From the NCBI RefSeq assembly GCF_003634585.1, contig NZ_RBLG01000001.1, forward strand, positions 682,001 through 746,000: 64,000 nt of DNA, read 5' to 3'. Of the stretch, positions 26,770 through 54,709 are shown piece after piece. The position numbers were made by a program, and so were the translations under genes. This DNA is from Gillisia mitskevichiae (GTDB lineage: Bacteria; Bacteroidota; Bacteroidia; Flavobacteriales; Flavobacteriaceae). Below the pieces are notes generated by a model. The model was given only the letters and a program-made list of their open reading frames with translations, ran no database searches and was not told where the DNA came from. The first letter of the stretch is position 1. Every line of letters begins with the position of its first letter.

Positions 26770-26824
26770 CTGGATTCAAAATCCAGTTCTTTCGGGAGTG
26801 CGGGTTCGATTCCCGCCTCGAGTA
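26770..26824 (+). pseudogene. 3' part of tRNA-Leu (anticodon CAA), attachment-site remnant
   Basis: The anticodon stem-loop is intact (CTGGA at 26770-26774, loop TTCAAAA with anticodon CAA at 26777-26779, TCCAG at 26782-26786). A long variable arm, T-arm (GCGGG, TTCGATT, CCCGC at 26800-26816), acceptor 3' strand CTCGAGT and A73 (26824) follow. The 5' side lacks a complementary ACTCGAG strand, and the D-arm region (TTTAGTAGTAAAT) is degenerate. It is therefore a truncated tRNA gene, probably attR of the left island and the site used by the right element. Confidence 0.8.
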
Positions 26825-26826
26825 CT
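26811..26826 (+). repeat. Putative att site, left (tRNA-Leu 3' end, 16 bp)
   Basis: TCCCGCCTCGAGTACT, from the T-arm through the discriminator base of tRNA-Leu. Identical to 54694-54709. Confidence 0.65.
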
Positions 26827-26847
26827 TTTAACGTATCAAATAACACC

Positions 26848-26890
26848 AAAACCCTATAAACCTCACTGTTTATAGGGTTTTTCTTTTTTC
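26848..26890 (+). terminator. Intrinsic terminator downstream of the tRNA-Leu remnant
   Basis: Perfect 14-bp arms AAAACCCTATAAAC (26848-26861) and GTTTATAGGGTTTT (26868-26881), a six-base loop and a T-rich tail. Confidence 0.85.
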
Positions 26891-26923
26891 TTGTACTCAT
26901 TTGATATCATATAAATACATCTA

Positions 26924-26948
26924 AAAGGTGTCTAATTCGGGGACACTC
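26924..26948 (+). repeat. 25-bp direct repeat, left copy (with inverted arm)
   Basis: Begins AAAGGTGTCTAATTCGGGGA and ends CACTC; identical over 25 bp to 54613-54637. At the left only, part of it (ATTCGGGGACAC, 26935-26946) pairs with GTGTCCCCGAAT at 26964-26975. It lies 117 bp before the integrase start. Confidence 0.7.
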
Positions 26949-27064
26949 TAGTTAATTGGTTAGGTGTCCCCGAATGGCTTGTAAGTGACTGTTAAATAAA
27001 GCTTTAGGGGTTTTTAGTTATAATTTTTTCAGGTAAATTTAGATGTAATTTTAAACTAAAAAGG

Positions 27065-28291
27065 ATGCAAGATCAATTATCAATATTATTCTATACAAGA
27101 AAAAGTAAAGATAAAAATGCTATTCAAGCTACCGTTTATCTGCGAATCACCTACGAAGGCAGAAGAGTTGAGTTAAGTACAATGAGGAAAGTTACACGCT
27201 CAAAGTGGAATCCTAAAGCAAATAAAGTTATTGGAACATCCATTGAAGCTAAACAAGTAAATCGGAATTTAGACATCATCAAAAATAGGATTTATGAAAT
27301 CTATCAAAAATTTTTAGACAATCAAGAGGAGATTTCTGCTCTAAAAATTAAAGATGTGTACTTAGGAAATAATGATAATCAGAAATCCATAGTAGAAATG
27401 TTTGAAGAACATAATTCTAGAATGGAAAAACTAATAGGAAGGGATTATTCTTTTAGAACCCTGCAGCGTTATAAAACCACAAAAAAGCATATTTCTTCTT
27501 TTATTAAATTCGATTATAAAATGAAGGATTATCCAGTAAAGGATATTGATACTAAATTCATTAATAGTTTTATCTATTATTTAAAAACTGAACTAAATCA
27601 TTCTCATAATTCTGCTGTAAAGTACCTTGCTTATCTTAAAAAGATTGTACGAGTAGCCTATGCAAATGGCTGGATAGAAAAAGATCCGTTCTATAATTTC
27701 AAACTTAAGCTTCAGGTAATTGAACGTGAATTCTTAACTAAAGAAGAAATCATTAGCATCATGGAAAAGCAATTTACTATTCCACGAATTGAACACGTGA
27801 GGGATATTTTTCTTTTTTCATGTTACACAGGTTTGGCATATGCCGATGTTTTCAAACTAACTGCTGATGATATTGTAAAAGGTATTGATGGAAACCAATG
27901 GATTAAAATAAAAAGAACAAAAACTAAATCCTTGAGCAGCATTCCAATCCTTCCCGTAGCTGAAAAACTTATTGATAAATATAAAGATCTAGATAGTCCA
28001 ACTGAAAAGTTACTCCCAGTGTATTCTAACCAACGAATGAATAGTTATTTAAAAGAAATAGCCGATCGCTGTGAAATAAATAAGAATTTGACTTTTCACA
28101 TGGCCAGGCATACCTTCGCTACAACTGTTACCCTTTCCAATGGTGTGCCTATAGAATCAGTAAGTAAAATGCTTGGTCATCAATCCCTTAAAATAACGCA
28201 ACATTATGCCAAGGTACTGGATGATAAATTAAGCGAGGATATGAATTTATTGAAGAAAAGAATTGATATGCAGGATAAAAACAGGGAATAA
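27065..28291 (+). CDS. IntDOT-like tyrosine integrase (alginate element)
   Basis: A 408-residue Bacteroidetes-type integrase: N-terminal arm domain (1-90), SAM-like domain (about 110-215), catalytic domain (about 220-400) with HMARHTFATT (H-x-x-R) and LGHQSLKITQHYAKV (His, Tyr nucleophile). At the usual Arg I position it reads CYTGLAYADVF, so the arginine is replaced, as in IntDOT of CTnDOT. It is the first gene inside the left end of the element and reads inward. It probably integrates and excises it. Confidence 0.93.
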   Translation: MQDQLSILFYTRKSKDKNAIQATVYLRITYEGRRVELSTMRKVTRSKWNPKANKVIGTSIEAKQVNRNLDIIKNRIYEIYQKFLDNQEEISALKIKDVYLGNNDNQKSIVEMFEEHNSRMEKLIGRDYSFRTLQRYKTTKKHISSFIKFDYKMKDYPVKDIDTKFINSFIYYLKTELNHSHNSAVKYLAYLKKIVRVAYANGWIEKDPFYNFKLKLQVIEREFLTKEEIISIMEKQFTIPRIEHVRDIFLFSCYTGLAYADVFKLTADDIVKGIDGNQWIKIKRTKTKSLSSIPILPVAEKLIDKYKDLDSPTEKLLPVYSNQRMNSYLKEIADRCEINKNLTFHMARHTFATTVTLSNGVPIESVSKMLGHQSLKITQHYAKVLDDKLSEDMNLLKKRIDMQDKNRE

Positions 28292-28641
28292 TATTCTCGC
28301 TTAAAAATTTTATAAAGGAAATGCCTTTTATTTTCTCTTGTATTAATGACCAAAAAATCAAAATCTGACGACATTTTCTTATTTGTTCATTTTCTCCAAA
28401 AAACTGTAATATTTCAAATTAACTCATTTGATATGATTCTGTACTAACTTATATAAAATTTGTACTCATCTGACATCAGATTGAACTATTCTTACTAAAT
28501 AGGTATTTTAACTGAATAATGTTTAAATAAAACTGAAATTTTGTATCTTGAATTGATGTTTTGTTAATACATTTTACTCTTATTAGCATATAAATTATGG
28601 TTTAAGAGAATAGTGTTGACGTTTGAACATCTTTGAAATAG
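28292..28641. other. 350-bp gap between integrase and primase-helicase
   Basis: It starts with a terminator-like hairpin (ATAAAGG 28312-28318, CCTTTTAT 28324-28331, then TTTTCTCTT). Downstream are diverged copies of a short motif near GTACTCATyTGAyATCA (28461; a related stretch is at 26893 outside the integrase gene), possibly integrase or excisionase binding sites. No ORF seen. Confidence 0.4.
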
Positions 28642-29850
28642 ATGCAAAGTGAAAATTCATATATACGGGTAGGAGTCAGTTATTACAAAATAGTTGAAGC
28701 ACCCACCATTGCCGGACAGGTAAATGAACTTTTGGTTTCTTGGAACATTGAAACTATTCGCCAAGACCATGGAAAAACATTTCTAGCCAGTATTCCAAAA
28801 TACGATGGCTTTACCTGTATTCCGGATCATCTTAATTTTCAATCCACCTATAACAACTTTTACAACACCTATTCTCCGTTAAACCATCATATACTGGAAG
28901 GATGTTGCAGTGAATCCTTAAAATTTGTAAAACATATTTTCGGGGATCACTCTGAACTGGGTTTGGATTATCTCCAACTCTTATATACCAAACCCATCCA
29001 AATACTTCCTATTCTTTGTCTGGTATCCCGTGAGCGTTCCACGGGTAAGAGTACTTTTTTAAAATGGCTCAAGCAAATCTTTGAAAACAATCTTACTTAT
29101 CTTACCAATGATAGCTTTAGCAGTCAGTTTAATGCAGATTGGGCCAATAAATTGCTGATTTGCATCGATGAAGTCTTGTTCAATAAAGAGGAACTCACTG
29201 AGCGAATCAAGTATTTAAGCACGACCAATTATAATAAACTTGAAAAAAAAGGAGTTGATAAGCGAGAGGTAGAATTCTTTGGGAAGTTCATCCTTTGCAG
29301 TAACAACGAAGAGAACTTTATAAAAATAGACCATCATGAAACCCGGTTCTGGGTATTGAAAGTTCCATCAGTTAAAAAGGAAATCACGAGTTTTTTAGAA
29401 AATTTAGAACAGGAAATTCCTGCATTTTTATATTTCCTTCAAACTCGAAAGCCACATAGTCCGCATCAAACCAGGATGTGGTTTACCCCCAAACAAATAG
29501 AGACTCCCGCACTTTTCAAGTTGGTGCAAAATAACCGAAATAGAGTAGAGAAAGAACTGGCAAGCATATTACTGATGGTGATGGAAAATCACGATCTCGA
29601 AGAAATCAAGTTTTGTCCGTTGGACGCTTTAAACGCTTTAAGCAAAACAAGATTGAGAACCGATTTAACCCAGATCCGGAAAATTCTTAAGAAAGACTGG
29701 AAGCTTGAAAGCAGTCCGAATTCGAACCGTTATCAAAAGTTTACGCTCTGGGGAGATGGTAGCACCAATTTTACAGATGGCAAAGGACGCTATTTCACTA
29801 TAAATAAAAAGTTCCTTTTGGAGCATTTTGAAGATCAAAACTCAGATTAA
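28642..29850 (+). CDS. SF3-type primase-helicase family protein (DUF5906-like)
   Basis: A 402-residue protein with Walker A SRERSTGKST (about 128-137), Walker B LLICIDEVLF (about 170) and FILCSNNEEN (sensor, about 216). This matches the virus/plasmid D5-like helicases common in Bacteroidetes mobilizable elements. The C-terminal ~100 residues look like a winged-helix DNA-binding part. It probably unwinds the excised circular form at the repeat region next door (29881-30097). Confidence 0.88.
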   Translation: MQSENSYIRVGVSYYKIVEAPTIAGQVNELLVSWNIETIRQDHGKTFLASIPKYDGFTCIPDHLNFQSTYNNFYNTYSPLNHHILEGCCSESLKFVKHIFGDHSELGLDYLQLLYTKPIQILPILCLVSRERSTGKSTFLKWLKQIFENNLTYLTNDSFSSQFNADWANKLLICIDEVLFNKEELTERIKYLSTTNYNKLEKKGVDKREVEFFGKFILCSNNEENFIKIDHHETRFWVLKVPSVKKEITSFLENLEQEIPAFLYFLQTRKPHSPHQTRMWFTPKQIETPALFKLVQNNRNRVEKELASILLMVMENHDLEEIKFCPLDALNALSKTRLRTDLTQIRKILKKDWKLESSPNSNRYQKFTLWGDGSTNFTDGKGRYFTINKKFLLEHFEDQNSD

Positions 29851-30192
29851 AATCGAGAAATAAAAAGGAAAATGATGATTTGATGACAAAATGATGACAC
29901 CGAAACCCTTGATTTTAGAGGGGGTTTGGGGCGTTGTCATCATTTCATCAAAATCAAACCAGTTTTTGGAGTAAACACTTTTAAATTCTTTCTTTTTTTG
30001 ATGATTTGATGACAGAATACTCTTAGACCAGTGATAGTAAGAGATACGGCTGTCATCAAAGTGTCATCAAAGTGTCATCAAAAATAAAATGATGACAAAT
30101 AATTTAAGCATTAGGAAGCTAATAAATAAGTACAATTCCACACAAAAAAAATGCTGCTGAAAGAAAAAATATAAATAGTAAAATAAGAGATA
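29851..30192. repeat. Iteron-like region: eight TGATGACA/TGTCATCA octamers, candidate replication origin
   Basis: TGATGACA at 29881, 29892, 30007, 30090 and the reverse complement TGTCATCA at 29935, 30051, 30062, 30073: four in each direction within 217 bp, several spaced 11 bp apart (one helical turn). A GC hairpin (AAACCC ... GGGTTT around 29904-29928) sits among them. The region is between the helicase and primase genes, where a replication origin would be expected. No ORF in it. Confidence 0.6.
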
Positions 30193-31083
30193 ATGAACTC
30201 AAAAAGAATCACCTGCGAAAGAGCCCGAAAGCTGTCCATCGTAAAAACGCTAGCCAGCTTCGGGCACTTTCCGAGCAGGACAACGGAGAAAGAAGCCTGG
30301 TTTCTGAGTCCCCTTCGGTCAGAAACGCAGGCCTCTTTCAAAGTTTCTTTGCTTTTGAACAAATGGTATGACCATGGACTAGGAACAGGCGGAAACGGGC
30401 TGGATTTGATCGTGGCTATGAAAAAGTGTTCAGTTAGAGAAGCACTAGAACTTCTAAGTAAAGAAAAGGACTTCTTTTTTTTTCAGCAGCCCATTTTAAA
30501 AAAGCCAAAAAGGCCAGAAATAAAAATATTAGAAATGAAACCCATCCAACATCAAGGTTTGATTCAATATATGGATGCTAGAATGATTTCGATACAAACA
30601 GCGCAGAGATATTGCAAGGAAGTTCATTATCAAATTATTGGGAAGTTCTATTTTTCAATCGGTCTTCAAAATAAGGAGGGTGGTTGGGAACTTCGAAATA
30701 AATATTTTAAGATCTCTAGTTCTCCTAAAGCCTATACTTATTTAAAAAACAATGCAGACCGTTTAATAATTATAGAAGGGATGTTCGATCTGTTGTCCAT
30801 GGCTGAGTTATATCCAAATCAACTAGAAAACTCCGATGTGATTGTTTTAAACTCGCTCTCTTTTTTACAAGCAGTTTCGGAATTGTTTGAAAATTATAAG
30901 GAAGTTGAATTGTATTTGGATCAGGATGAATCTGGAAGAATGCATTCTAAGGAACTAACCGATCGATATTCCAATGTGAAAGATAAAAGTGATTGCTACA
31001 TAGGTTATAAGGATCTGAACGAGCAACTGATCTCAATTAGAAAAGGAAAAGAAATGATTAAGAAAATTAAAAAACTCCGGTGA
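30193..31083 (+). CDS. Toprim-domain DNA primase (CHC2-like N-terminus without Cys)
   Basis: A 296-residue protein. The N-terminus (about 15-95: FLSPLRSETQASFKV, KWYDHGLGTGGNGLDLIVAM) has the shape of a DnaG zinc-binding (CHC2) domain, but no zinc Cys set is seen. The C-terminal half is a Toprim domain with LIIIEGMFDLLSM (about 192-204) and LYLDQDESGR (about 236-245), the acidic metal-binding motifs. It probably lays primers for replication of the element, working with the helicase upstream. Confidence 0.85.
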   Translation: MNSKRITCERARKLSIVKTLASFGHFPSRTTEKEAWFLSPLRSETQASFKVSLLLNKWYDHGLGTGGNGLDLIVAMKKCSVREALELLSKEKDFFFFQQPILKKPKRPEIKILEMKPIQHQGLIQYMDARMISIQTAQRYCKEVHYQIIGKFYFSIGLQNKEGGWELRNKYFKISSSPKAYTYLKNNADRLIIIEGMFDLLSMAELYPNQLENSDVIVLNSLSFLQAVSELFENYKEVELYLDQDESGRMHSKELTDRYSNVKDKSDCYIGYKDLNEQLISIRKGKEMIKKIKKLR

Positions 31084-31112
31084 ACGCCCAAAGGGAGAAT
31101 TTCATTTGGAGA

Positions 31113-31155
31113 AGCAAAGCAAGATGTGTCATTGTCATGACAATCTTGCTTTGCT
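31113..31155. promoter_or_regulatory. Perfect 13-bp inverted repeat, candidate oriT
   Basis: AGCAAAGCAAGAT (31113-31125) pairs with ATCTTGCTTTGCT (31143-31155). Inside, TGTCA ... TGACA forms a further stem (31127-31142). It lies just before mobC and the relaxase, the usual place of oriT in mobilizable elements. The nick site cannot be named. Confidence 0.55.
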
Positions 31156-31186
31156 CCCGAAGGTTGCAAAGATTTTAAAAGAAAAA

Positions 31187-31483
31187 ATGAAACGAGAATA
31201 CATCCAAATACGCTGCTCGATCTACGAGAAAAAGTTGCTCAAAAAAAGAGCGGCCAGGGCTGGAATTTCCCTTTCTGAATATCTGCGTGCTACGGCATTC
31301 AAAATAAATATGGTGGAACGAATTACTCAAGAACAATTGGAAGCCTATCAACTCTTGATTCAATATAAAAACAACTTTAGCCGGATTAGTAATATGTTTA
31401 AAAAGGGGAATCCAAAACTTGCCAAAGAAGTACAAGAGCTTGCCGAGGAAATCAGATCCCATTTAAAAAATTTCAAGAAATGA
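31187..31483 (+). CDS. mobC: MobC-like relaxosome protein
   Basis: I choose the ATG at 31187 (98 aa). A TTG/ATG-extended frame exists upstream (from 31106 or 31124), but it would run through the inverted repeat at 31113-31155. The product has a ribbon-helix-helix-like start (REYIQIRCSIYEKKLLKKRA) followed by AGISLSEYLRATA, typical of MobC/plasmid mobilization proteins, then two helices. It overlaps the relaxase start by 4 bp. It probably binds oriT and helps the relaxase. Confidence 0.83.
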   Translation: MKREYIQIRCSIYEKKLLKKRAARAGISLSEYLRATAFKINMVERITQEQLEAYQLLIQYKNNFSRISNMFKKGNPKLAKEVQELAEEIRSHLKNFKK

Positions 31484-32357: not shown

Positions 32358-32807
32358 ATGAAAAAACTAGATGAAATTATGGAGCTCATGACTGATGAGA
32401 TGGAAGATTTTAAAACCGCAATTATTTCGCTTCAACTACTCTCGACGAGGCTACACGAATTAAGCATTCCAATAAGTACCGAAGCATTGGATAAGAGTTT
32501 GAATAAATTCTTAGAGCAACAGCAAAAAGAAAACAGCTTAAAGGATCAAGTGCTAAGGGAGATAGAAAGGAAATTAAAACACGCTCGGATAATTCCGAAT
32601 TATCTGCTGATCCTGGTTTGTTCACTGGGTATCCTTTCATTAAGTCTTTTGGGTTATTTTGGGTATTCTTTGCGTGAAACACAGAACGAAAAATTTGAAC
32701 TCTATCAAATCCTTATGGAAACTAGCAATGAAAAGTATCAAGAGTATTTCTCGAAAAACCCAGAGGTTGAAGATAATTTTAAGCAGTGGTTAGAGGAGAA
32801 AAAATAG
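32358..32807 (+). CDS. Mobilization-accessory membrane protein, unknown family
   Basis: A 149-residue protein with a long N-terminal coiled-coil-like region (about 1-75), one membrane helix (about 82-105) and a charged C-terminus. It follows the relaxase by 11 bp, so it is probably co-transcribed. Similar small helical membrane proteins follow relaxase genes in Bacteroidetes elements; I do not recognise a named function. Confidence 0.6.
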   Translation: MKKLDEIMELMTDEMEDFKTAIISLQLLSTRLHELSIPISTEALDKSLNKFLEQQQKENSLKDQVLREIERKLKHARIIPNYLLILVCSLGILSLSLLGYFGYSLRETQNEKFELYQILMETSNEKYQEYFSKNPEVEDNFKQWLEEKK

Positions 32808-33362
32808 GCTTTGTCATAACAATTGACCTTGACGCAAATTATCCTAATTTTACAGTAAATGGATTGGAAACCCCAGTAAATTCGTAATTTTTTACTGTAC
32901 CAGTTGCGTCAAAAGTAGTTTGCGCCCTATGCTGTTTTTATTTTACGCTTAACTTCCCGTACGCTATAAAAACAGCACAGGATCCACGCGCAAGATTAGT
33001 TATGGTAGATTTGGGGGACTTTGTGGAAGACATGAGTTTTTAGAAAAATAAATCCGTAATTATGGAATAGAATATCAGTTAAAATCCCACCTATCAAAAG
33101 AATGGAAATATTAAATTGAAGATTTTTTTCAATTAAACATGCTAAGAAAACGCGATGATGTAAGGTATACAGTTTCAAAAATATGATTACAATAAATTAT
33201 TATAAGCCTAGGGTGGAAGGATTATAAAAGCTAATAAATTTTATATATTTTTTCCTAAACATAATGGTCTGTTTACTTTTTAAAGTTGTGTAGAGAAGGA
33301 AAAAAATCAATTAGAAGATTCTTATAATGACTAAAAATATTTGGTAAAGAGGTGATTATTTT
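32808..33362. other. Gap of about 560 bp at the mobilization/cargo junction with three inverted repeats
   Basis: Nested pairs: TTGACGCAA (32829-32837) with TTGCGTCAA (32904-32912), and inside it TACAGTAAA (32851-32859) with TTTACTGTA (32891-32899). A third pair, TGCTGTTTTTA (32930-32940) with TAAAAACAGCA (32967-32977), follows at once. The rest to 33362 is AT-rich with no ORF. It could be a second origin, a recombination scar where the alginate cargo was joined, or terminators. Confidence 0.5.
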
Positions 33363-33391
33363 TATATTTGGTAAACCAAATTGGTAAACCA
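33363..33391 (+). promoter_or_regulatory. Promoter and operator of the PL6 transcription unit
   Basis: -7 box TATATTTG (33363-33370, consensus TAnnTTTG) runs into TGGTAAACCA (33369-33378) and a second TGGTAAACCA (33382-33391), 13 bp apart. The start codon is 9 bp after. A bound protein would block RNA polymerase, so this reads as a repressor site, likely for the GntR protein at 48630. Confidence 0.75.
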
Positions 33392-33400
33392 GATTATATT

Positions 33401-35710
33401 ATGAAATATTTCCTTCTCCTTTTTACGCTTTTATCTTCCAGCCTAAACTTTTCACAAGAAGTCTCCAGGAAAGAAATTCTAGTTCAAAATATCACAGAAT
33501 TTAATTCTGCAGTATCTTCTGCCAAACCTGGTGAGAATATTATAATGGCTAGTGGTGTTTGGAAAGATGTAGAATTAATTTTCAAGGGAAATGGAACAAA
33601 AGACCAACCTATTTCTTTAAGTGTTGAAGAAAAGGGAAAGGTAACTATTGAAGGGAAATCTTCACTGAAATTGGCAGGAGAATATCTAATAGTGGACGGT
33701 TTGTATTTCAAAAATGGTTTCACTCCGTCTAATTCTGTCATTCAATTTAAAGTTGATAATGATAATATTGCTAACCATTCCCGGGTCACTAATTGTGTAA
33801 TTGAAAACTTTACTCAACCAAGTCGGGATGTTCAGGATCACTGGATAGAGTTCTGGGGAAGAAATAATCAGCTAGATCATTGTTATATAGCAGGGAAATC
33901 TAATTCCGGACCTACTTTAAGAGTTTTCCTAAAGGGAAATGAAAATATTAATACTCATCATCAAATCATTAATAATTATTTTGGTCCTAGACCCAGAAAA
34001 GGAGGTCCTCACGGTGAAACCCTTCAAATAGGTTCTAGTGAAACCTCAATGACACCCGCATACGTTAATGTTGCTGAGAATTTATTTTATAGATGTAATG
34101 GGGAGGTAGAAATTATTTCAAGCAAATCCAATTTCAATCAATTTAGCCACAATGTTTTTTTCGAATCGGAGGGTTCCTTGGTTCTAAGACATGGTAATTA
34201 TGCAACGATCGATGGAAATGTTTTTATTGGAAATGATAATTCAGAATTTATAGGTGGAATTCGGGTAATAAATACTGGGCACTGGATCACCAACAACTAT
34301 TTTTATAAATTAAAAGGTTCAGAATTTAGAAGTCCATTAGCGGTCATGAATGGAATCCCTAAATCCCCTTTGAACAGATATAATCAGGTGACCGATGTGG
34401 TTGCTGCTTTCAATACTTATGTTAATTGCATCTCTCCTTGGCATTTTAGTGTAGGATCTAATGTAGATAAAAGTGAAGTGTTGCCTGCTACTGAAATACG
34501 TTCTGCGAGACCTGAGCGTGTATTGCTGGCCAATAATTTAATTTATAATGATAAGGAACAGAATTTTCCAATTGTAGCTTACGATACTGTAGATGGGGTA
34601 CGTTTTAAAAACAATATTTCAAATAGTATCAATAAGAGTGAAGTGCAGGATAAAGGCATTATTACAAAGGATTTTAAAATTAAAAAGATCAGTGACTATT
34701 TATACGTTCCTGTTGAAAATCTAACAGAGGTTTATTCGGGTTTTGATTTTGAAAAGATCCAGGAAGATATTTTTGGAACCAATCGAACCGAGATTAAAAG
34801 TATTGGTGCTGTAAGCCTTCCAGTAGAAAAAGATCAACGTTTGTTCGAATTATCTGAATATGGGCCAGATTGGTATACTCCGGTAAAGGAAAGTAAAAAG
34901 TCTAAGATTTTTAAAGTTTCAACTACAGACGAATTACTGGAAGTGCTCCAAAAAACAGCTTCAGAAGATATTATAGAAGTAAAATCTGGTACTTATAAGC
35001 TAGAGGTTTCTATCCCAATAAATAAAAAGATTAGTATTAGATCAGAAAAAGGAAAGAAGAAAGCTATTCTTCAATTTTCAGAAAGTAATTCTTCTCCTGC
35101 ATTCGAAATGAATCCGGAAGGAGCTCTTAAGATGGAAAACATAATATTAAAGGGCACAAAGAACCGGGATGCTTTTGGGACATTAAAAGAAAATATGTCC
35201 AGCGCTTATAATTTGTGGATTGATAATTCGGAAATTAGCGGATTTAAAAATCTTCTGAAAGTTTCTCAACGCTCTTTTGCCGATACAATTTCTATAGCAA
35301 ATTCAACAATTAAAGATCTTCAGAGCGGTATAAATCTGGCAGAAGAAACCGATGATAAGGGAGAGTACAATGCAGAATTTGTTTACATCACCAATTCCAA
35401 TTTCAGCAATATTAAGGAGGAGGTTTTAAATTATTATAGAGGCGGTTATGATGAATCTACAATTGGAGGTAATCTAATCTTAACAGGAAACACCTTCAAA
35501 AACTCTGGTACTTCAGAAAACACAGAAATCCTATTAAAGACTCGAGGGATAGTGAATGTCGTGTTTTCTGATAATAGTTTTATAGACAATTCGGTAAAAT
35601 ATATCGCCATCCTTTGGGGTGAAAAAGGTCAGAAGCCTGAGAATAATAGCATCAAAAATTCCGGAGAGATCAAGATAGAAGAGAATCTGAAGCAAAAATT
35701 AATGTACTAA
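33401..35710 (+). CDS. PL6-family alginate lyase
   Basis: From the ATG at 33401 (769 aa; the longer TTG frame starts inside the operator). Signal peptide about 1-18. The first half is a right-handed beta-helix with GPRPRKGGPHGETLQIGSS (about 198-216), VEIISSKSNFN (Lys base candidate) and LVLRHGNYATIDGN (Arg candidate), the PL6/chondroitinase-B pattern. The second half (about 510-769) is another beta-helix, as in two-domain PL6 enzymes. It cleaves alginate by beta-elimination in the periplasm or outside. First gene of the alginate cargo. Confidence 0.9.
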   Translation: MKYFLLLFTLLSSSLNFSQEVSRKEILVQNITEFNSAVSSAKPGENIIMASGVWKDVELIFKGNGTKDQPISLSVEEKGKVTIEGKSSLKLAGEYLIVDGLYFKNGFTPSNSVIQFKVDNDNIANHSRVTNCVIENFTQPSRDVQDHWIEFWGRNNQLDHCYIAGKSNSGPTLRVFLKGNENINTHHQIINNYFGPRPRKGGPHGETLQIGSSETSMTPAYVNVAENLFYRCNGEVEIISSKSNFNQFSHNVFFESEGSLVLRHGNYATIDGNVFIGNDNSEFIGGIRVINTGHWITNNYFYKLKGSEFRSPLAVMNGIPKSPLNRYNQVTDVVAAFNTYVNCISPWHFSVGSNVDKSEVLPATEIRSARPERVLLANNLIYNDKEQNFPIVAYDTVDGVRFKNNISNSINKSEVQDKGIITKDFKIKKISDYLYVPVENLTEVYSGFDFEKIQEDIFGTNRTEIKSIGAVSLPVEKDQRLFELSEYGPDWYTPVKESKKSKIFKVSTTDELLEVLQKTASEDIIEVKSGTYKLEVSIPINKKISIRSEKGKKKAILQFSESNSSPAFEMNPEGALKMENIILKGTKNRDAFGTLKENMSSAYNLWIDNSEISGFKNLLKVSQRSFADTISIANSTIKDLQSGINLAEETDDKGEYNAEFVYITNSNFSNIKEEVLNYYRGGYDESTIGGNLILTGNTFKNSGTSENTEILLKTRGIVNVVFSDNSFIDNSVKYIAILWGEKGQKPENNSIKNSGEIKIEENLKQKLMY

Positions 35711-46574: not shown

Positions 46575-47488
46575 TTAAGCAACCAATGAAATATTTTCAA
46601 AAAGCTGTGATTTTAATTGGAGTGCTAACTTTTAGTTCCATTTCAATTCAATGTCAGAGTGCTGGATCTGCAATTAATCATCCATCAGAAAAGGATCTTA
46701 ACTCAGATAAAAAGTATCAATTACCAGATATAGATTTAAGTCATTGGAAAGTAACTATCCCGGAAGGGGAGGGAAAAGGAGGGGCCATAAGTGTGGAACC
46801 TCCTAAAATCCTCGATTATGCAAACAATGAAGTGTTGAAACCTTATATGTATAATGATTCAACTTCTGGTGCATTGGTATTTTACGCGCACCCAAGTAAT
46901 GCGACAACAGCGAATACTAAATATTCAAGGTCTGAATTACGAGAACAAATGGTTGCTGGGGATGATGATATTAATTGGACCTTTAAAAAAGGAGGAAACT
47001 TGAAAGCTACCATTTCTATGGAAGATGTATCGCGAGATAAAGAAGGAAAATACCATAAGGTGATCATTCTTCAAATTCATGGAAGAGTAACAGATGAACA
47101 GAAGAAATTAATCGGGCAAAAGGATAATAATGCCCCACCAATATTGAAAATTTACTGGCATAATGGAAAAATAAGAGTGAAGACCAAAGAATTGAAATTT
47201 TTAGGCACAAAAGCAGATGGTCTGCTGTATGAAGAAGCTTGGGCTGATGATGATGGTTACACTTTTCAAAATGAGGTTGGATTTAAAAAGTTTGATATTG
47301 AAATTGATGTATCAGATGGAAAGATGGTGATTTCGTTGAATAATAATGAATTTAAAACCTATGACAACATTCACATGGAAAAATGGGGAGTATTCGAAAA
47401 TTATTTCAAGGCAGGAAATTATCTTCAAACCACAGATGAGGGCGCATATGCTAAAGTGAAATTCTCTAAACTGAAAGTTTCACATTAA
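46571..47488 (+). CDS. PL7-family alginate lyase lipoprotein (first copy)
   Basis: A 305-residue lipoprotein (SSISIQCQS, lipid Cys about 28). The PL7 jelly roll covers about 50-303 with YSRSELREQM (about 117-126), VIILQIHGR (Q-I-H catalytic region), ILKIYWHNGKIRVKT and YFKAGNYLQ (conserved Tyr near the end). It cleaves polymeric alginate, probably on the cell surface since it is co-encoded with SusCD. A second start, six codons in (46586), is possible. Confidence 0.9.
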   Translation: MIKQPMKYFQKAVILIGVLTFSSISIQCQSAGSAINHPSEKDLNSDKKYQLPDIDLSHWKVTIPEGEGKGGAISVEPPKILDYANNEVLKPYMYNDSTSGALVFYAHPSNATTANTKYSRSELREQMVAGDDDINWTFKKGGNLKATISMEDVSRDKEGKYHKVIILQIHGRVTDEQKKLIGQKDNNAPPILKIYWHNGKIRVKTKELKFLGTKADGLLYEEAWADDDGYTFQNEVGFKKFDIEIDVSDGKMVISLNNNEFKTYDNIHMEKWGVFENYFKAGNYLQTTDEGAYAKVKFSKLKVSH

Positions 47489-47498
47489 CAAATTGAAA

Positions 47499-48419
47499 AT
47501 GAGAAATAGGAGATATAAGAAATATTTTAAGTCCGTCTGTTTTTCTTTCTATACGCTTGGCCTGCTGAGTATTTTTATTAGCTGTGAAAAAGAGGAAGCG
47601 GTGGATAAACCTATTGTAGATCCTATAGAAGTAGTACCAGAAACGGAAATCTCTAAAGACTATAAGTTACCAAATATAGATCTTAGCCATTGGAAAGTTA
47701 CTATTCCAATAGGAAATCCTACAGAAGTTGAGCCGCCGGAGATTATAGATTATGCTACAAATGAGACCTTAAAAAGGTTTATGTATAACGATTCTACGGA
47801 TGGTTCACTTGTTTTTTACACATTTCCTGCTTCATCTACTGCAAACTCATCTTATTCCAGAACAGAACTCAGGGAGCAGATGCAACCAGGAAATAACAGT
47901 GTAAATTGGACCTTCGAACAAGGCGGGAAAATGAAAGGTACATTATCGGTTCCAGAAATTTCTAAAGATGAGAACGGGGAGTTTGAAAGAACAATAGTAA
48001 TGCAAATCCATGGCAGACTTACCAATGAGCAAAGGGATTTAATTGGTGAAGACGATAATAATGCGCCACCTATATTAAAGATATATTGGTTTAAAGGAAA
48101 GATACGGGTGAAAACAAAAGTCCTAAAAGATATTGAAGCTTCAGACACTGAGATCTTATTCACAGATGCTTGGGGTGATGATGAAGGTTTTAATTTTTTA
48201 GAAGAAGTTGGACATGAAAAATTTACTCTAGAGATTGTTGCTTCCAAAGGAAAGATGGAAATAACTTTAAATGATAAAGAAAAAGTTGTTTACGATAATA
48301 TACATATCCAAAAATGGAATGTATTTGAAAACTACTTTAAGGCCGGAAATTATTTTGCAAGTAAAAATGAAAATTCATTTGCTAAAGTAAAATATTTTGA
48401 TCTTGAAGTAAGCCATTGA
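47499..48419 (+). CDS. PL7-family alginate lyase lipoprotein (second copy)
   Basis: From the ATG at 47499, 306 residues with a lipobox (SIFISCEKE, about 28). Same PL7 motifs as the copy upstream: YSRTELREQM, TIVMQIHGR, ILKIYWFKGKIRVKTK, YFKAGNYFA. The genes are 10 bp apart and clearly duplicated but have diverged, especially near the N-terminus and in loops, which may reflect different M/G block preference. Confidence 0.9.
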   Translation: MRNRRYKKYFKSVCFSFYTLGLLSIFISCEKEEAVDKPIVDPIEVVPETEISKDYKLPNIDLSHWKVTIPIGNPTEVEPPEIIDYATNETLKRFMYNDSTDGSLVFYTFPASSTANSSYSRTELREQMQPGNNSVNWTFEQGGKMKGTLSVPEISKDENGEFERTIVMQIHGRLTNEQRDLIGEDDNNAPPILKIYWFKGKIRVKTKVLKDIEASDTEILFTDAWGDDEGFNFLEEVGHEKFTLEIVASKGKMEITLNDKEKVVYDNIHIQKWNVFENYFKAGNYFASKNENSFAKVKYFDLEVSH

Positions 48420-48629: not shown

Positions 48630-49340
48630 ATGAAAGTGGAGTCATTTAACAAAAAAAATATTCAGCAGGAAACAGTGAATAATATTATTTCTGAAATAAG
48701 GGACTATATTAATTTCAAAAATCTGGAGCCGGGTGATAAGTTGCCTTCAGAACGTATGCTGTCTGATAGGTTTGGAGTAAGTAGAAATAATTTAAGAGAA
48801 GCAATCCAAACTCTTGAGTTTTACGGACTCTTACAATGTGTTCCTCAAAGTGGTACTTATTTAGCCAATATTGGAGTGGTTGCTCTAAACGGAATGATTT
48901 CGGATATTTTGAGTTTAAATGATCCAGACTTTAAATCTCTGGTTGAAACTAGAATCTTATTGGAGTTAAAAACCGTGAGATTAGCTTCCCTGAGACGCAC
49001 TGAGGAACAGCTGAAGCAAATGAAAGATGCATTAGAAGCTTATACGGAAAAGGCTCTTAAAGGGGAAGATGCAGTTCAGGAAGATCTTCTATTCCATTTG
49101 GCTATCGCTAAAGCAAGTGGTAATAGTACTATGAATACTTTCATGCTTATTATTACTCCAGAAATTATTACAAATTTCGCGAAATATCATGTTTGTGATG
49201 AAAACCAAGCAATTCTTGGAATTGAAGAACATAAAGCTATTTATAAAGCAATAAAAAATATGGATCCTCAAGAAGCTAAGGAGAAAATGAAATTACATTT
49301 TAGAAGTTTATATAAATATTGTTACAATGTAGACTTATAA
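48630..49340 (+). CDS. GntR/FadR-subfamily transcriptional regulator of alginate genes
   Basis: A 236-residue regulator. N-terminal winged helix (about 12-80: GDKLPSERMLSDRFGVSRNN, LREAIQTLEFYGLL) and an all-helical FCD ligand domain (about 95-230: EDLLFHLAIAKASGN with a metal-binding His pattern). FCD regulators sense small acids such as uronate derivatives. It is the only regulator in the cargo, and its promoter and three others carry the same repeated decamer, so it is probably their repressor, relieved by an alginate breakdown product such as KDG. Target assignment is inference. Confidence 0.9.
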   Translation: MKVESFNKKNIQQETVNNIISEIRDYINFKNLEPGDKLPSERMLSDRFGVSRNNLREAIQTLEFYGLLQCVPQSGTYLANIGVVALNGMISDILSLNDPDFKSLVETRILLELKTVRLASLRRTEEQLKQMKDALEAYTEKALKGEDAVQEDLLFHLAIAKASGNSTMNTFMLIITPEIITNFAKYHVCDENQAILGIEEHKAIYKAIKNMDPQEAKEKMKLHFRSLYKYCYNVDL

Positions 49341-49556: not shown

Positions 49557-50837
49557 ATGAAAATAAAAGGTCTTAGATGGTGGATTATAGGTTTAATAGC
49601 TCTTGCTACTGTCATTAACTATATTGATAGATCAGCACTGGCAATTATGTGGCCCGGGATTTCTAAAGATCTAGGCATGACAGATTCAGATTATGCCATC
49701 ATATTAAATGTATTTATGGTAGCCTACGCTTTGGGGCAATCTATTTCAGGAAAATTGTATGATAAGGTAGGAACACGTGTTGGTTATGTACTTTCAATAT
49801 TCTTCTGGTCTTTAGCTTCAATTTTGCATGCATTTTCAAGAGGATTGTTATCCTTAAGTGCATTTCGAGTATTACTAGGAGTTTCAGAAGCAGGAAACTG
49901 GCCTGGAGCTGTTAAGAGTAATGCCGAGTGGTTTCCAGTAAAGGAAAGGGCTATCGCTCAAGGAATATTTAATGCTGGTGCTTCCATGGGTTCTGTAATT
50001 GCACCGCCATTAATTGCCTATTTGTATTTAGCATTCGGGTGGGAGACAACTTTCATTATTATTGGAGCTAGTGGGATGTTGTGGATTATACCCTGGTTGA
50101 TATTTAATAAGAATAAACCTAAATATCATAAATGGATAACAGAAAAAGAAAAAGCTCATATAGTTTCCGGGCGTCACCTTGGGAGAAATGAAGATGATGA
50201 GGACGAGGGGTTAAGTATAATGCAGATCCTTTCTCATAGAGAATCTTGGGCTGTATTAGCATCCCGATTCTTTCTGGAACCAATTTGGTGGTTGTTTGTA
50301 GGTTGGATGCCTTTATATCTTGCAGATACCTATGGGTTTGATGTAAAAGAAATCGGACTTTTTGCCTGGGTGCCATTTGTTGGTGCTGCTGCGGGAAGTG
50401 TTATAGGTGGACTTTTAACGGGGACCTGGATAGCTAGTGGGAACTCCGTTGATACTTCTAGAAAAAGAACTATTTGGATAGGTGGTCTTTTAATGTTCCT
50501 AGGTCTAGTTACAACAATTTTATATGCAGATACACCGGTAAAATTTGTTGGGATTGTAGCAATTGTGTTGTTTGGATTTCAGTTCGCTATTTCTAATATT
50601 CAAACGTTACCTAGCGACCTATTCAGTGGAAAATCTGTAGGATCACTAGCTGGACTTGGAGGTTCAGTAGGGATTTTTTCAGTAATTATAATGAACTTTT
50701 TGATTCCTGTAATTACTAAAGAATCCTATACTCCGGCCTTTATACTAATAGCAGTATTTGTACCTCTGGGTGTGCTTTCAGTATACCTATTATGTAGAAA
50801 TATTGGCCCCGTAGATAACAAAAAGAATAATAATTAA
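49557..50837 (+). CDS. MFS transporter, hexuronate/DEH uptake (ACS family)
   Basis: A 426-residue protein with twelve membrane helices. The N-terminus NYIDRSALAIMWPGISKDLG (about 21-40) and YDKVGTRVGYVLSIFFWS match the anion:cation symporter (ExuT-like) branch. In alginate clusters this carrier brings the unsaturated monouronate or DEH across the inner membrane. First gene of the catabolic operon. Confidence 0.9.
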   Translation: MKIKGLRWWIIGLIALATVINYIDRSALAIMWPGISKDLGMTDSDYAIILNVFMVAYALGQSISGKLYDKVGTRVGYVLSIFFWSLASILHAFSRGLLSLSAFRVLLGVSEAGNWPGAVKSNAEWFPVKERAIAQGIFNAGASMGSVIAPPLIAYLYLAFGWETTFIIIGASGMLWIIPWLIFNKNKPKYHKWITEKEKAHIVSGRHLGRNEDDEDEGLSIMQILSHRESWAVLASRFFLEPIWWLFVGWMPLYLADTYGFDVKEIGLFAWVPFVGAAAGSVIGGLLTGTWIASGNSVDTSRKRTIWIGGLLMFLGLVTTILYADTPVKFVGIVAIVLFGFQFAISNIQTLPSDLFSGKSVGSLAGLGGSVGIFSVIIMNFLIPVITKESYTPAFILIAVFVPLGVLSVYLLCRNIGPVDNKKNNN

Positions 50838-50856: not shown

Positions 50857-51621
50857 ATGAGTGATTCAAAGAAAAAAGTAGCATTAATAACAGGAGCAAC
50901 TGGCGGAATTGGATTCGAAGTAGCTAAAAGACTTGGAAAAGACGGTTATACCGTAATTTTAAACGGGATTGAAGATGAAAAAGGCGCCGACAGGATTGAG
51001 GAGCTTAAAAAAGATGGTATTTCTGCAGAGTACTATGGTTTTGATGTAACAAACGAGGAGGCTGTTTCTTCAAATATTAAAAAAATAGGAGAGAAATACG
51101 GTAAGATAGATGTGCTTGTAAACAATGCAGGTGGTCTTGGAGGCAGATCTAGGTTTGAAGATATGACCACAGAATTTTATAGATCTGTAATGGCATTAAA
51201 TCTGGATTCAGCATTTTTTGCTTCCCGAGCATCTATCCCATTTTTAAAACTTGGAAAAAATCCATCAATTATAAATTATACGTCCAATGCTGGATGGAAT
51301 GCTGGTGGTCCTGGTGCAGGTATCTATGGAACTTCAAAAGCGGCTGTCAACACTCTTACAAGAGCGCTAGCTAAAGACTTGGCAGAATATGGCATCCGTG
51401 TTAATGCAGTTTCTCCTGGTACCATAGACACGCCTTTCCATGCACAAATTAAATCTACAAAACCAGAAGTGTTTGCTTCTTGGAAGAACAATATTCTTTT
51501 AGGGCGATTAGGACAGCCGGAAGAAGTAGCTTCTGTTATATCCTTCTTAGTAAGTGATGATGCTGCTTTTATTACTGCGGAAACCATTCAAATTGGTGGT
51601 GGACAAGCATTGGGAATCTAA
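50857..51621 (+). CDS. SDR-family reductase, probable DEH reductase
   Basis: A 254-residue short-chain dehydrogenase: TGATGGIGFEVA (cofactor glycine loop, about 11-22), NNAGG (about 88-92), Ser about 143, and YGTSKAA (Tyr/Lys catalytic, about 155-161). In this operon it most likely reduces 4-deoxy-L-erythro-5-hexoseulose uronate (DEH) to 2-keto-3-deoxygluconate (KDG). The NADH/NADPH choice cannot be told from sequence alone. Confidence 0.87.
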   Translation: MSDSKKKVALITGATGGIGFEVAKRLGKDGYTVILNGIEDEKGADRIEELKKDGISAEYYGFDVTNEEAVSSNIKKIGEKYGKIDVLVNNAGGLGGRSRFEDMTTEFYRSVMALNLDSAFFASRASIPFLKLGKNPSIINYTSNAGWNAGGPGAGIYGTSKAAVNTLTRALAKDLAEYGIRVNAVSPGTIDTPFHAQIKSTKPEVFASWKNNILLGRLGQPEEVASVISFLVSDDAAFITAETIQIGGGQALGI

Positions 51622-51644
51622 ATGTTGTAAATTATCCTTCTTCC

Positions 51645-51834: not shown

Positions 51835-52854
51835 ATGAAAAATATTGTTGCTTTTGGTGAAATCTTAATGCGATTATCTCCACCTGATCATCTTAGGTTT
51901 TTTCAGGCAAACACGTTTGAGACCTCTTACAGTGGAGCAGAATTTAATACCCTGGTTTCTTTGCAAAACTGGGGTTTAAAAACTCAATTCGTAACGAAAT
52001 TACCGGATAATGATTTTGGGGATAAGGTTCTTTCAGAAATTAGTAGATATCGTGTAGGACAAAAGCATATTGTAAAGGGAGGTGATAGACTCGGAATTTA
52101 TTTTTTGGAAAAAGGTTCTGCGATTAGATCGGGAAAGGTTATTTATGACAGGGCAGAAAGTGCTATTGCTAATGTGAAAACCGGCGATATAAACTGGGAA
52201 AAGGCTTTAAAAGGAGTCGAATGGTTTCATTGGTCGGGTATAACACCGGGTATCTCTGAGGCGGCAGCTCAGGAATGTTTGCTTGCTTGCAAGACTGCAA
52301 GAAGCATGAATATTAAAATCTCATGTGACCTTAATTATCGCAAAACACTTTGGAAATGGGGAAAAAGACCAGATGAGGTCTTACCAGAGATTTTAGCCTT
52401 AACAAATGTTATATTGGCTGATCTTGCTACACTTTTTAAAATGCTAGGGAGAAGAGATATTGATCCTGACTATACTTTGCCAGAGACCTTAGGAGATCAT
52501 TATAAAGAAGTTTTAGAAAGTTGTCCAGAACTAGAATTCTTACCATCAACATTACGATACTCCCAAAGTGCATCGCATCAAAAAATTGGTGGAATAATGT
52601 ATTCCAACGGAAAATTAGTTACCTCAGATATAAAGGAAATCATTCCGGTAGTAGATCGTTTAGGGACTGGAGATGCTTTTATGGCAGGTATTATCTATGG
52701 CCTAAGTCAAGATTGGGAGGCTCAAAAGGTTTTAGATTTTGCGGTAGCCTCAAGTTCTTTTAAGCACACAATTTCAGGAGACATCAATTTAGCCTCCTTA
52801 AATGAGATCAATGCTATTATGCAAGGAGACTTATCTGCATTAGTAAAACGATAA
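51835..52854 (+). CDS. kdgK: 2-Keto-3-deoxygluconate kinase (PfkB family)
   Basis: A 339-residue sugar kinase. The start VAFGEILMRLSPPDHLRFFQ and the SGAEFNTLVSLQNWG segment match KDG kinases, and VVDRLGTGDAFMAGIIYGLS (about 272-291) is the PfkB signature with the catalytic Asp in GTGDAF. It makes KDPG from KDG with ATP. The gene is 12 bp before eda. Confidence 0.93.
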   Translation: MKNIVAFGEILMRLSPPDHLRFFQANTFETSYSGAEFNTLVSLQNWGLKTQFVTKLPDNDFGDKVLSEISRYRVGQKHIVKGGDRLGIYFLEKGSAIRSGKVIYDRAESAIANVKTGDINWEKALKGVEWFHWSGITPGISEAAAQECLLACKTARSMNIKISCDLNYRKTLWKWGKRPDEVLPEILALTNVILADLATLFKMLGRRDIDPDYTLPETLGDHYKEVLESCPELEFLPSTLRYSQSASHQKIGGIMYSNGKLVTSDIKEIIPVVDRLGTGDAFMAGIIYGLSQDWEAQKVLDFAVASSSFKHTISGDINLASLNEINAIMQGDLSALVKR

Positions 52855-52866
52855 AAATTATTAGAT

Positions 52867-53538
52867 ATGTCTAAACTATCAAGACTCGAGGTATTAAATA
52901 TTATGGGATCTACAGGCTTAGTTCCCTTATTTTATCATGAAGATATAGAGGTTGCAAAAAAAATCATAAAAGCCTGTTACGATGGGGGAGCAAGGGTTTT
53001 AGAATTTACTGCACGTGGTGATTTTTCTCATGAAGTGTTTAACGAACTAAGTAAACATGTTCAAAAAAATTATCCCGGTCTTGCATTGGGAATTGGTTCT
53101 ATTACAGACGGGTCTTCAGCATCATTATATATTCAATTAGGGGCAGATTTTATTGTAACCCCTGTGTTTAGAGAAGATATTGCAATAGTATGCAATAGAA
53201 GAAAAATTCCATTTTTTCCAGGTTGTGGATCTTTAACTGAGATAGCAAAAGCGGAGGAAATGGGCTGTGAAGTGGTGAAATTATTCCCGGGTTCTATATA
53301 TGGACCTGAATTTATAAAAGCAATTAAAGGGCCACAGCCGTGGACAAGTATTATGCCTACAGGTGGCGTTGAACCTACAGAGGAAAGTTTAAAAGATTGG
53401 TTTAATGCTGGGGCTTTTTGTGTGGGTATTGGTTCTAAGCTTATGATAAAGGATTCTACTGGGTCTTATAATTATACTGAAATTGTAAACCTTGTAAAAA
53501 AATGCACTTCGATTATAAAGGAGCTGAAAGGGAAGTAA
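52867..53538 (+). CDS. eda: KDPG aldolase
   Basis: A 223-residue class I aldolase: RVLEFTARGD (about 38-47), GADFIVTPVF (about 92-101), and VVKLFPGSIYGPEFIKAIKG (Lys Schiff base in VVKLFPG, about 136-142). It cleaves KDPG into pyruvate and glyceraldehyde 3-phosphate, the last step of alginate breakdown. Confidence 0.93.
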   Translation: MSKLSRLEVLNIMGSTGLVPLFYHEDIEVAKKIIKACYDGGARVLEFTARGDFSHEVFNELSKHVQKNYPGLALGIGSITDGSSASLYIQLGADFIVTPVFREDIAIVCNRRKIPFFPGCGSLTEIAKAEEMGCEVVKLFPGSIYGPEFIKAIKGPQPWTSIMPTGGVEPTEESLKDWFNAGAFCVGIGSKLMIKDSTGSYNYTEIVNLVKKCTSIIKELKGK

Positions 53539-53592
53539 AAAAGGTTTATTTCTAAAAGTGCCTGATATCATTAATTTATATAAATCAAAAGA

Positions 53593-54603
53593 ATGGAAAG
53601 GCATATAACTTTAGGAGAATTTATTGTTGAAAATCAAAAGGATTTCCCCTATGCAAAAGGGGAATTAAGCGCTTTGCTAAGTTCTATTCGGCTTGCAGGG
53701 AAAATGGTAAATCAGCAAATTAATAAGGCTGGACTTGCCGAAATTTTAGGAAAAGCTGGTAAAGAAAATATACAAGGAGAGAGCCAGGCGAAGTTAGATG
53801 TAATGGCTAATGATATTTTTATTAGTTCCCTTCGTAAACGTGGTGAAATCTGCGGACTAGCTTCTGAAGAGTTAGAAGACTATTTAGTGTTTGATGATAG
53901 AATACATAAGAATGCGAAATATGTTGTGCTTATAGACCCTCTTGATGGCTCAAGCAATATTGATGTAGGTATTACTGTAGGAACTATTTTCAGTATTTAC
54001 CGCAGAATTACTCCTGAAGGAAGCAAGGTAGAATTAAAAGATTATCTACAACCCGGAACTAAGCAAGTAGCAGCTGGATATTTGATTTATGGTACTTCTA
54101 CAATTCTGGTATACACTACCGGAAACGGGGTAAATGGCTTCACTTTTGATCCAGGAATCGGATCTTTTTTTCTTTCTCATCCAAGTATTAAATTTCCTGC
54201 TACTGGAAGCACTTATTCTGTTAACGAAGGGAATTATGTACATTTTCCTGCTGGAATTAAAAAATATATTAAATGGGTACAGGAGCTAAACGAAGAAGAG
54301 AATAGACCTTTTACTTCTAGGTACACCGGTTCCTTGGTGGCAGATTTTCATAGAAATATGTTACTTGGTGGAATTTATTTGTATCCTCAAGGAACAACAG
54401 CTCCAAAAGGTAAATTGCGGTTATTGTATGAATGTAATCCTTTGGCATTTTTAGCCGAACAGGCTGGGGGAAAAGCTTCGGATGGTCTTAAAAGAATAAT
54501 GGAGTTACAGCCTGAAGAACTACATGAAAGGGTGCCTTTTATTTGTGGTAATAAAGAAATGGTGGAAAAGGCTGAAGAGTTTTTAACTTCTTGTAAATCT
54601 TAA
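53593..54603 (+). CDS. fbp: Fructose-1,6-bisphosphatase, class I
   Basis: A 336-residue FBPase: [20 protein letters not shown] (metal-binding DPLDGSSN, about 116-123), and [20 protein letters not shown] near the C-terminus. It removes one phosphate from fructose 1,6-bisphosphate, needed for gluconeogenesis when cells live on alginate-derived triose. Last gene of the operon; ends 9 bp before the right 25-bp repeat. Confidence 0.95.
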
Positions 54604-54612
54604 AACTGAGTT

Positions 54613-54637
54613 AAAGGTGTCTAATTCGGGGACACTC
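54613..54637 (+). repeat. 25-bp direct repeat, right copy
   Basis: Identical over 25 bp to 26924-26948. It starts 10 bp after the fbp stop codon. Confidence 0.7.
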
Positions 54638-54693
54638 CAATTACCAATGCTTGGAGTGCCTAATAATAACGGCACAAGCAGATTTTCAAGCAC

Positions 54694-54709
54694 TCCCGCC
54701 TCGAGTACT
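54694..54709 (+). repeat. Putative att site, right (tRNA-Leu 3' end, 16 bp)
   Basis: TCCCGCCTCGAGTACT, identical to 26811-26826. The bases before it (TTTTCAAGCAC) are not tRNA-like, so only the tRNA end is duplicated. Confidence 0.65.

Follow-up and report, generated by a model that had tools for sequence, protein, structure and literature searches.

A probable integrative mobilizable element at tRNA-Leu(CAA) carries an alginate utilization locus in Gillisia mitskevichiae

We analyzed a 64,000-nucleotide window of the 3.59-Mb genome of Gillisia mitskevichiae (C1:682001-746000) and found in it a bounded element of 27.9 kb, at window positions 26811-54709, in which genes for the use of alginate, a cell-wall sugar of brown algae, follow the backbone of a mobile element. 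We are confident, though short of certain, that this is a canonical integrative mobilizable element (IME) of the Bacteroidetes type, inserted at the 3′ end of tRNA-Leu(CAA) and carrying an alginate regulon as interchangeable cargo. It has its own integrase, with attachment sites at both ends, and its own relaxase with catalytic residues, whereas the type IV secretion system that would make it an integrative conjugative element (ICE) is absent: no mating-pore or coupling-protein gene was found among the 21 of its 22 open reading frames (ORFs) of at least 100 aa that were scanned with Pfam, and the PF19044 match lies outside the element. A SusC/SusD pair together with alginate lyases makes the cargo an alginate polysaccharide utilization locus (PUL). 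All 21 scanned ORFs have Pfam matches agreeing with what an earlier reading of the bare sequence (hereafter the original prediction) had claimed for them, and the sole unscanned one is an antisense ORF within a PL7 gene (47852-48247). The listed genes are all on the + strand, with six backbone genes (integrase to DUF6730) preceding 15 cargo genes (PL6 to the fructose-bisphosphatase, FBPase). The Pfam matches, the exact ends and the unique repeats confirm that an alginate locus lies inside a bounded element with integrase and mob genes, and support its interpretation as cargo on a mobilizable element, which is probably capable of passing between cells.

The ends of the element are defined by a 16-bp direct repeat, TCCCGCCTCGAGTACT, which stems from the 3′ end of the tRNA and is present in identical copies at 26811-26826 and 54694-54709. 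The left attachment core is the last 16 bp of the 3′ half of the chromosomal tRNA-Leu(CAA) (26768-26826, + strand), a gene that precedes the integrase in intact form in relatives, and the right core is an exact copy on the same strand. A 31-nt subterminal repeat containing GGTGTCTAATTCGGGGACACTC sits inward of each core, in direct orientation, at a distance of 97 bp on the left and 50 bp on the right. On the left (26924-26975, +), GGTGTCTAATTCGGGGACACTC occupies 26927-26948 and an inverted partial copy 26963-26975; we propose these as arm sites of the integrase, and the same repeat precedes the integrase in the related loci L153 and L160. The right copy (54613-54643, +) recurs at right ends in genomes G253, G255 and G256 and is altered in G251 and G262. 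When the whole genome was searched, a 15-bp core with at most one mismatch was found in exactly two places, the two element ends, and the inner 19 nt of the subterminal repeat, GTGTCTAATTCGGGGACAC, with at most two mismatches, again in exactly two, while a reversed control pattern gave 0 matches. As both sequences occur only at the ends of the element, they are not general genomic repeats, the outcome that the original prediction had named as fatal to it, and its statement that repeats bracket the block is borne out. Its placement of the element at tRNA-Leu(CAA) holds for the 3′ end of the gene but not for the gene as a whole. An intact tRNA at the left end is ruled out, as only the 3′ half there is chromosomal tRNA-Leu(CAA); Rfam gives a tRNA match at 26752-26824 (34 bits) and ARAGORN calls no tRNA in the window. 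The 5′ half lies at C1:592163-592205, ends with CGCTGGATTCAAAATCCA, an 18-bp stretch from the anticodon region that the 3′ half has as well, and is separated from the 3′ half by 117 kb, which are taken up by a neighbouring ICE array.

The backbone begins with a tyrosine integrase of 408 aa (27065-28291; Pfam Arm-DNA-bind_5, Phage_int_SAM_5 and Phage_integrase), whose relatives adjoin an intact tRNA-Leu(CAA). Behind it come a DUF5906 protein of 402 aa (28642-29850), a probable primase-helicase with a VapE-like match below the Pfam cut-off, and a Toprim (DnaG-like) primase of 296 aa (30193-31083). The mob operon consists of a NikA-like MobC of 125 aa (31106-31483), a MobA/VirD2-type relaxase of 288 aa (PF03432; 31480-32346), presumably of the MOBP type, and, as its last gene, a DUF6730 protein (32358-32807). 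In the relaxase, Tyr17 and the HxHxH motif (H107, H109, H111) are identical in 81 of 81 aligned rows. The integrase, primase-helicase, primase, MobC and relaxase announced for this block were thus recovered by Pfam, the primase-helicase with the reservation just given.

The cargo opens with a PL6 alginate lyase (33368-35710 as listed, its true start probably lying 3′ of an operator described below), for which Pfam and the solved relative AlyGC agree. It is followed by a lyase of the heparinase II/III fold (35721-37991), a PL17 oligoalginate lyase (38154-40418; Pfam, a second model below its cut-off, and the solved relative 7bjt with 1002 bits), a KdgF-like cupin (40424-40777; Pfam and a solved relative), a SusC-type TonB receptor (41149-44202) and a SusD-type lipoprotein (44231-45655), both found by Pfam and a further model, a PKD-domain protein (45675-46574), and two PL7 alginate lyases (46571-47488, with a solved relative, and 47493-48419). 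A GntR/FCD regulator (48630-49340) and an MFS transporter (49557-50837) come next, then an SDR reductase (50857-51621), a PfkB kinase of the KDG kinase type (51835-52854), a KDPG aldolase (Eda; 52867-53538) and a class 1 FBPase (53593-54603), the last two found by Pfam and a further model and the others by Pfam. The lyases of families PL6, PL7 (two copies) and PL17, SusC/D and KdgF, as well as the carrier, Eda, FBPase and the regulator, accordingly stand as originally assigned. Other assignments stood only in part. The heparinase-fold lyase has the expected fold; it matches heparinase families only, its solved matches being heparinase III entries, so that alginate as its substrate is an assignment by context. 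The proposed DEH reductase and KdgK belong to the SDR and PfkB families, with their exact function given by context: the DEH reductases 4tkl and 4w7i are among 759 SDR matches, which is not specific, and the best kinase models fall below their cut-offs. In the route from unsaturated uronate to pyruvate and triose phosphate, KdgF and Eda are therefore well supported, and the reductase and the kinase are placed by family and context.

A palindromic motif suggests that these genes are regulated together. TTGGTWWACCA, with at most one mismatch, matches 21 times in the window against 5.6 expected (palindromic sites counted on both strands); eight cargo sites precede PL6, PL17, SusC and the regulator, and there is no exact match in the window outside the cargo. 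The proposed operator pair before PL6, TTGGTAAACCA, is at 33368-33391 (+), and the other sites are at 38047, 38060, 40853, 40866, 40879 and 48589. The motif is also matched in two relatives, ahead of PL6 and PL17 in G254 and ahead of PL6 and SusC in G256. The GntR protein would be the one to bind these sites, and the 15 cargo genes would then form a single catabolic regulon for alginate.

To see what occupies the same site elsewhere, we surveyed 16 Gillisia genomes, of which G255, G257, G259, G260 and G261 are 65-82% complete, judging the type of left end by eye. The core motif is present in 14 of them. The left end of this element family was seen in ten (G000, G250, G251, G252, G253, G255, G256, G258, G261 and G262), and the site seems unoccupied in three: G249, with a second core 371 bp on, G254, and G111, whose core has one mismatch. 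In G259 a right-end-like copy and a degenerate one are all that is present, and G257 and G260 have none. Backbone genes stand at tRNA-Leu(CAA) in G251, G253, G255 and G256, where integrase and relaxase of the last are 90% and 84% identical to ours, and in two Christiangramia records (L160 and L161). Elements with both cores measure 27.9 kb here, 50.9 kb in G251 (L153; taken as G. hiemivivida), 37.0 kb in G253 (L155; taken as G. marina), 34.1 kb in G262 and 17.7 kb in G255 (L148; taken as Gillisia UBA3175). In the G251 element the subterminal repeat is present left and right, with one change in the right copy, the backbone is 78-79% identical in nucleotides, and the chromosome on both flanks matches that of the window. 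What these sisters carry differs: in G251, where 10 of 37 ORFs of at least 110 aa were scanned, the cargo is for capsule synthesis; G253 (10 of 29 scanned, three without a match) has families of type I restriction, McrBC, HipA and patatin; there are TonB receptor, PepSY, kinase (a histidine kinase is among the sister cargo) and transposase genes in G262 (6 of 31 scanned); and kinase, HipA and CarboxypepD_reg genes in G255 (4 of 14 scanned). When the cargo proteins were run by tblastn against the elements of G251, G253 and G262, no alginate locus turned up. G254 shares the upstream chromosome up to an intact tRNA-Leu with no element end behind it; since 19.9 kb separate this tRNA from the downstream flank, the site is best called unoccupied by this family rather than empty, and G254 appears to be a chromosomal relative without the element at the site, checked on the upstream side. 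In G249 and G111 the upstream 9 kb gave no match in the 3 kb compared, and their seeming vacancy is not confirmed as the same site. A scenario in which every relative carries the locus here and no empty site exists, which the original prediction had held against itself, did not occur: other cargo is found at the site, alginate PL17 is present in 3 of the 16 genomes (our own, G254 and G256), and G254 is unoccupied by the family. Two side observations concern these elements. In G255 (C2:477896-495634; L292/L293) the right core of one element is directly followed by the left end of another, giving tandem elements behind an ICE-split tRNA-Leu. The G. mitskevichiae genome holds two more elements, at C1:1098120-1104271 (L111) and C3:23020-25714 (L146), with related mob modules (relaxase 91% and 72%) and other integrases, a case of module exchange.

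The alginate genes themselves appear to have moved within the genus. In G254, block 33354-54582 of the window recurs at an unrelated locus, 93% identical in nucleotides over 21.2 kb, without backbone or element ends; in G251, these flanks enclose 3.4 kb of different sequence. At four-fold third bases, our genome and G254 are identical in 1890/2382 positions (0.79) of 14 cargo genes and in 868/1699 (0.51) of 10 core genes, and the per-gene ranges do not overlap (0.68-0.87 against 0.40-0.63). Because synonymous similarity of the cargo exceeds that of the core, these values argue that the alginate genes passed from one of the two lineages to the other once they had split, leaving direction and vehicle aside. 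Such transfer is seen here, from sequence comparison, within Gillisia only: the nearest PL17 found outside the genus is about 62% identical, and on this ground we reject import from another genus in recent times. In G256, some 0.7 Mb separate the alginate locus from tRNA-Leu; its FBPase is immediately followed by the subterminal repeat and the right end of the element up to CACTCCCGCCTC (L232:9724), then by a break and another integrase-like gene. We read this locus as alginate cargo that an older member of the family probably carried and that settled elsewhere. Separately, TTTGTGCGGGCG is found on both sides of it (L231:5928-5939 and L232:9869-9880) in surroundings like a tRNA 3′ end, where Rfam finds no tRNA, which suggests a second island at another tRNA in G256.

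A possible helper lies next door. The ICE array between the halves of tRNA-Leu(CAA) encodes families TraG, TraM, DUF4138 (which we take to be TraN), a coupling protein and RteC, and it holds the only match to the TraG family PF19044 in the genome; being in the same tRNA gene, it is a plausible helper for the element. From these features we infer the following cycle. The integrase would recombine the two 16-bp cores, with the subterminal repeats as its outer binding sites, and the excised circle would replicate by means of its own primase and helicase. MobC and MobA would nick the circle at an origin of transfer (oriT), after which the strand would leave through the type IV secretion system that a CTnDOT-like ICE, for instance the neighbour, provides. 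In the recipient, the element would enter tRNA-Leu(CAA) and bring with it a self-regulated alginate pathway. As to the array itself, it interrupts the tRNA in the anticodon region, and just within its left end lies a complete tRNA-Leu(CAA) (C1:592163-592313; L004:1416-1566), which perhaps replaces the broken gene. A second copy (93%) of its integrase end is at C1:645913-646690, and its cargo at window positions 5122-24252 concerns metal efflux, with an RND pump, a multicopper oxidase, a P-type ATPase and a permease.

Several results weigh against an element that moves and brought the alginate genes with it. Nothing in the sequence shows that the element has been excised or transferred, and its target tRNA is today interrupted by the ICE array. 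Four-fold identity of the backbone with G251 is 190/357 (0.53) against 325/548 (0.59) in core genes, which shows no recent exchange. The original prediction had called for a search for the same element at tRNA-Leu(CAA); this recovered the backbone with other cargo in Gillisia and Christiangramia, but no second genome with an alginate IME among loci L148-L179, compared with the cargo proteins mostly over 10 kb on each side. The G254 block lies outside any visible IME, so chromosomal homologous recombination could have moved it, and the G256 locus has a four-fold identity of 0.43 (9 genes) against 0.47 for core genes (3 genes), no excess. Finally, we inspected 39 of the 81 other genomes of the family with a PL17 match, up to 20 kb each (40 stretches, two being one G225 contig), and none of the 39 loci was carried by an IME: 38 had no integrase or relaxase match, and that of G225 adjoins an IME whose relaxase and integrase point away from the PUL. 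On this sample, in which stretches of such length would miss more distant integrases and the integrase and relaxase profiles came from the present family, we reject an alginate IME as the common vehicle in the family.

Part of this evidence would fit an IME that was once mobile and is now fixed, the alginate genes being a resident island gene set. The split tRNA and a backbone no more similar to that of G251 than core genes are speak in its favour, and decay is frequent in the family: at the same site, G262 keeps both cores and an integrase but lacks mob genes, the integrase of G258 is in two pieces, MobC of G253 lies in pieces across frames, and no backbone genes were found behind the left ends of G250 and G252 in the stretches examined (about 19 and 38 kb). 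All six backbone ORFs of our element, however, are open and full-length against their relatives, its 16-bp cores are identical and its subterminal repeats are kept, and we regard fixation as a serious but minority possibility. That the IME travels chiefly as part of a single unit with the neighbouring ICE array seems somewhat less probable still. The two do sit in one tRNA, the IMEs of UBA3175 and G256 likewise have a related ICE integrase (81% and 92%) beside them, and accretion of elements and composite transfer are described in the accessible text of PMC5704250; yet the IMEs at L153 (G251), L155 (G253), L160 and L161 stand at an intact tRNA with no match of at least 35% to the ICE integrase in the stretch examined. 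Lastly, the alginate locus could be old in Gillisia and have been captured from the chromosome by an IME, or through imprecise excision, its history being mostly vertical or one of chromosomal recombination. The loci of other genera outside IMEs and the ordinary chromosomal place of the G254 block speak for this, but the cargo sits between the two ends of the element, that of G256 runs directly into a truncated element right end, and synonymous similarity with G254 is above that of core genes; we consider it the least likely of the three. An old capture is possible within the reading of the element as a cargo-bearing IME, which we prefer.

Two noncoding regions of the element deserve attention as origins. 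The original prediction had listed an oriT-like hairpin in the block, a point that we correct. The repeat-rich region between the DUF5906 and primase genes (29851-30192, +; TGATGACA/TGTCATCA), is strongly foldable as DNA (z -6.4 against 100 shuffles) and kept among sister elements, and it looks more like a replication origin than an oriT. A better oriT candidate is a conserved hairpin 3′ of the mob operon (32921-33016, +). This 94-nt hairpin occurs in 72 of 80 related relaxase loci (L148-L227, read up to 10 kb on each side of the relaxase), mostly 0.4-0.7 kb behind the relaxase, with an inverted second copy in 10 of the 72, in nine of them 0.5-0.6 kb before the relaxase start (examples at L191:9383-9484, L207:9365-9462 and L225:9366-9464). 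To assess pairing we used 71 rows (from 86 matches, 74 distinct copies passed the coverage filter, four with inserts or divergence were excluded and the window copy was added). In these, 98.0% of 1272 cells pair against 84.4% in shuffles, and 156 cells have changes on both sides against 38.9, with no excess of further pair types (19 against 20.3). Only five cells are G-U, a near absence that fits pairing of DNA rather than RNA. Rfam assigned no family to the hairpin at its curated cut-offs, with only sub-threshold miRNA and viral matches.

The wider distribution of the hairpin is less clear-cut. In its own genome the model has three matches, one beside each of the three relaxases, and it is present in 45 of 397 genomes of the family. 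By hand count in 249 genomes, the relaxase is found in 31, the hairpin in 29 and both in 14, and of 80 hairpins, 27 have a relaxase of this family within 2 kb. Twenty of the 53 others were inspected: seven are within 1.5 kb of a tyrosine integrase, and four stretches have a gene for DUF6730 or a relaxase-like protein. Since such a relaxase is missing from the vicinity of most copies, an oriT is not the only role to consider, and this scarcity counts against it; a primase start site or a junction for module exchange are the other candidate functions. The sister element of G251 has two direct copies 6.4 kb apart (L145:13370-13463 and L145:19804-19897), as expected if cargo were inserted or exchanged there. 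A more speculative idea, which we put forward tentatively, is that the hairpin is a transfer origin common to many flavobacterial islands, on which relaxases of IMEs would act both in cis and on islands without a relaxase, several of which have the hairpin immediately after their integrase, recombination between copies swapping the cargo behind the mob module. If so, whole PULs such as the alginate set would be plug-in modules on a common mobilization system.

Like NBU1, NBU2, Tn4399 and Tn4555, the element has an integrase and a MobP relaxase and no transfer apparatus of its own. NBU1 also inserts into a tRNA-Leu gene and carries a primase, and these four are known mainly for resistance or for having no cargo. 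IMEs with cargo have already been described in Bacteroidetes, as have PULs located on mobile elements. Canonical IMEs of this phylum, with integrase and MobP relaxase, are mobilized by ICEs, whose equipment includes a VirD4 coupling protein and the mating pore typical of Bacteroidetes (PMC5704250, accessible part). Gut IMEs have a median of 11 cargo genes, and 47 SusC/SusD loci are on mobile elements of gut genomes (both from the available text of PMC6907783); here, by contrast, the 15 cargo genes make up one catabolic regulon. Porphyran, agarose and carrageenan loci from seaweed degradation are carried by ICEs or mobilizable plasmids in gut Bacteroides, according to the sections seen of PMC8845570. 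Unlike these gut carriers, which are ICEs or plasmids where the vehicle is named, ours is an IME with alginate genes in a marine genus. The neighbour resembles CTnDOT-like ICEs in its TraG, TraM, DUF4138, coupling protein and RteC, and differs from them in splitting the tRNA in the anticodon region and in the complete tRNA-Leu(CAA) inside its left end. The open-licence papers listed in response to our searches include no marine alginate IME, and likewise nothing relevant on Gillisia islands or alginate ICEs; polysaccharide, CAZyme, SusC and alginate do not occur in the main text, as far as available, of a paper on the marine conjugative mobilome (PMC11104534).

The cargo itself is like other flavobacterial alginate utilization loci in its PL6, PL7 and PL17 lyases, SusCD and downstream uronate pathway. 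In Flagellimonas such loci are mainly vertically inherited (PMC12323373, in part), and the available text of PMC5966431 and PMC12323373 treats their transfer by phylogeny, without the words integrase, mobile or conjugative. The combination of tRNA-Leu(CAA) and subterminal repeats offers a handle for finding further catabolic, capsule and defence islands of the same family. While the transfer of algal polysaccharide loci in marine Bacteroidota, alginate loci of flavobacteria included, is usually argued from gene trees, here the vehicle itself is visible, with its integrase, mob genes, exact ends, sisters, a relative without the element, a fossil end and a plausible helper, so that the spread of alginate use becomes directly testable.

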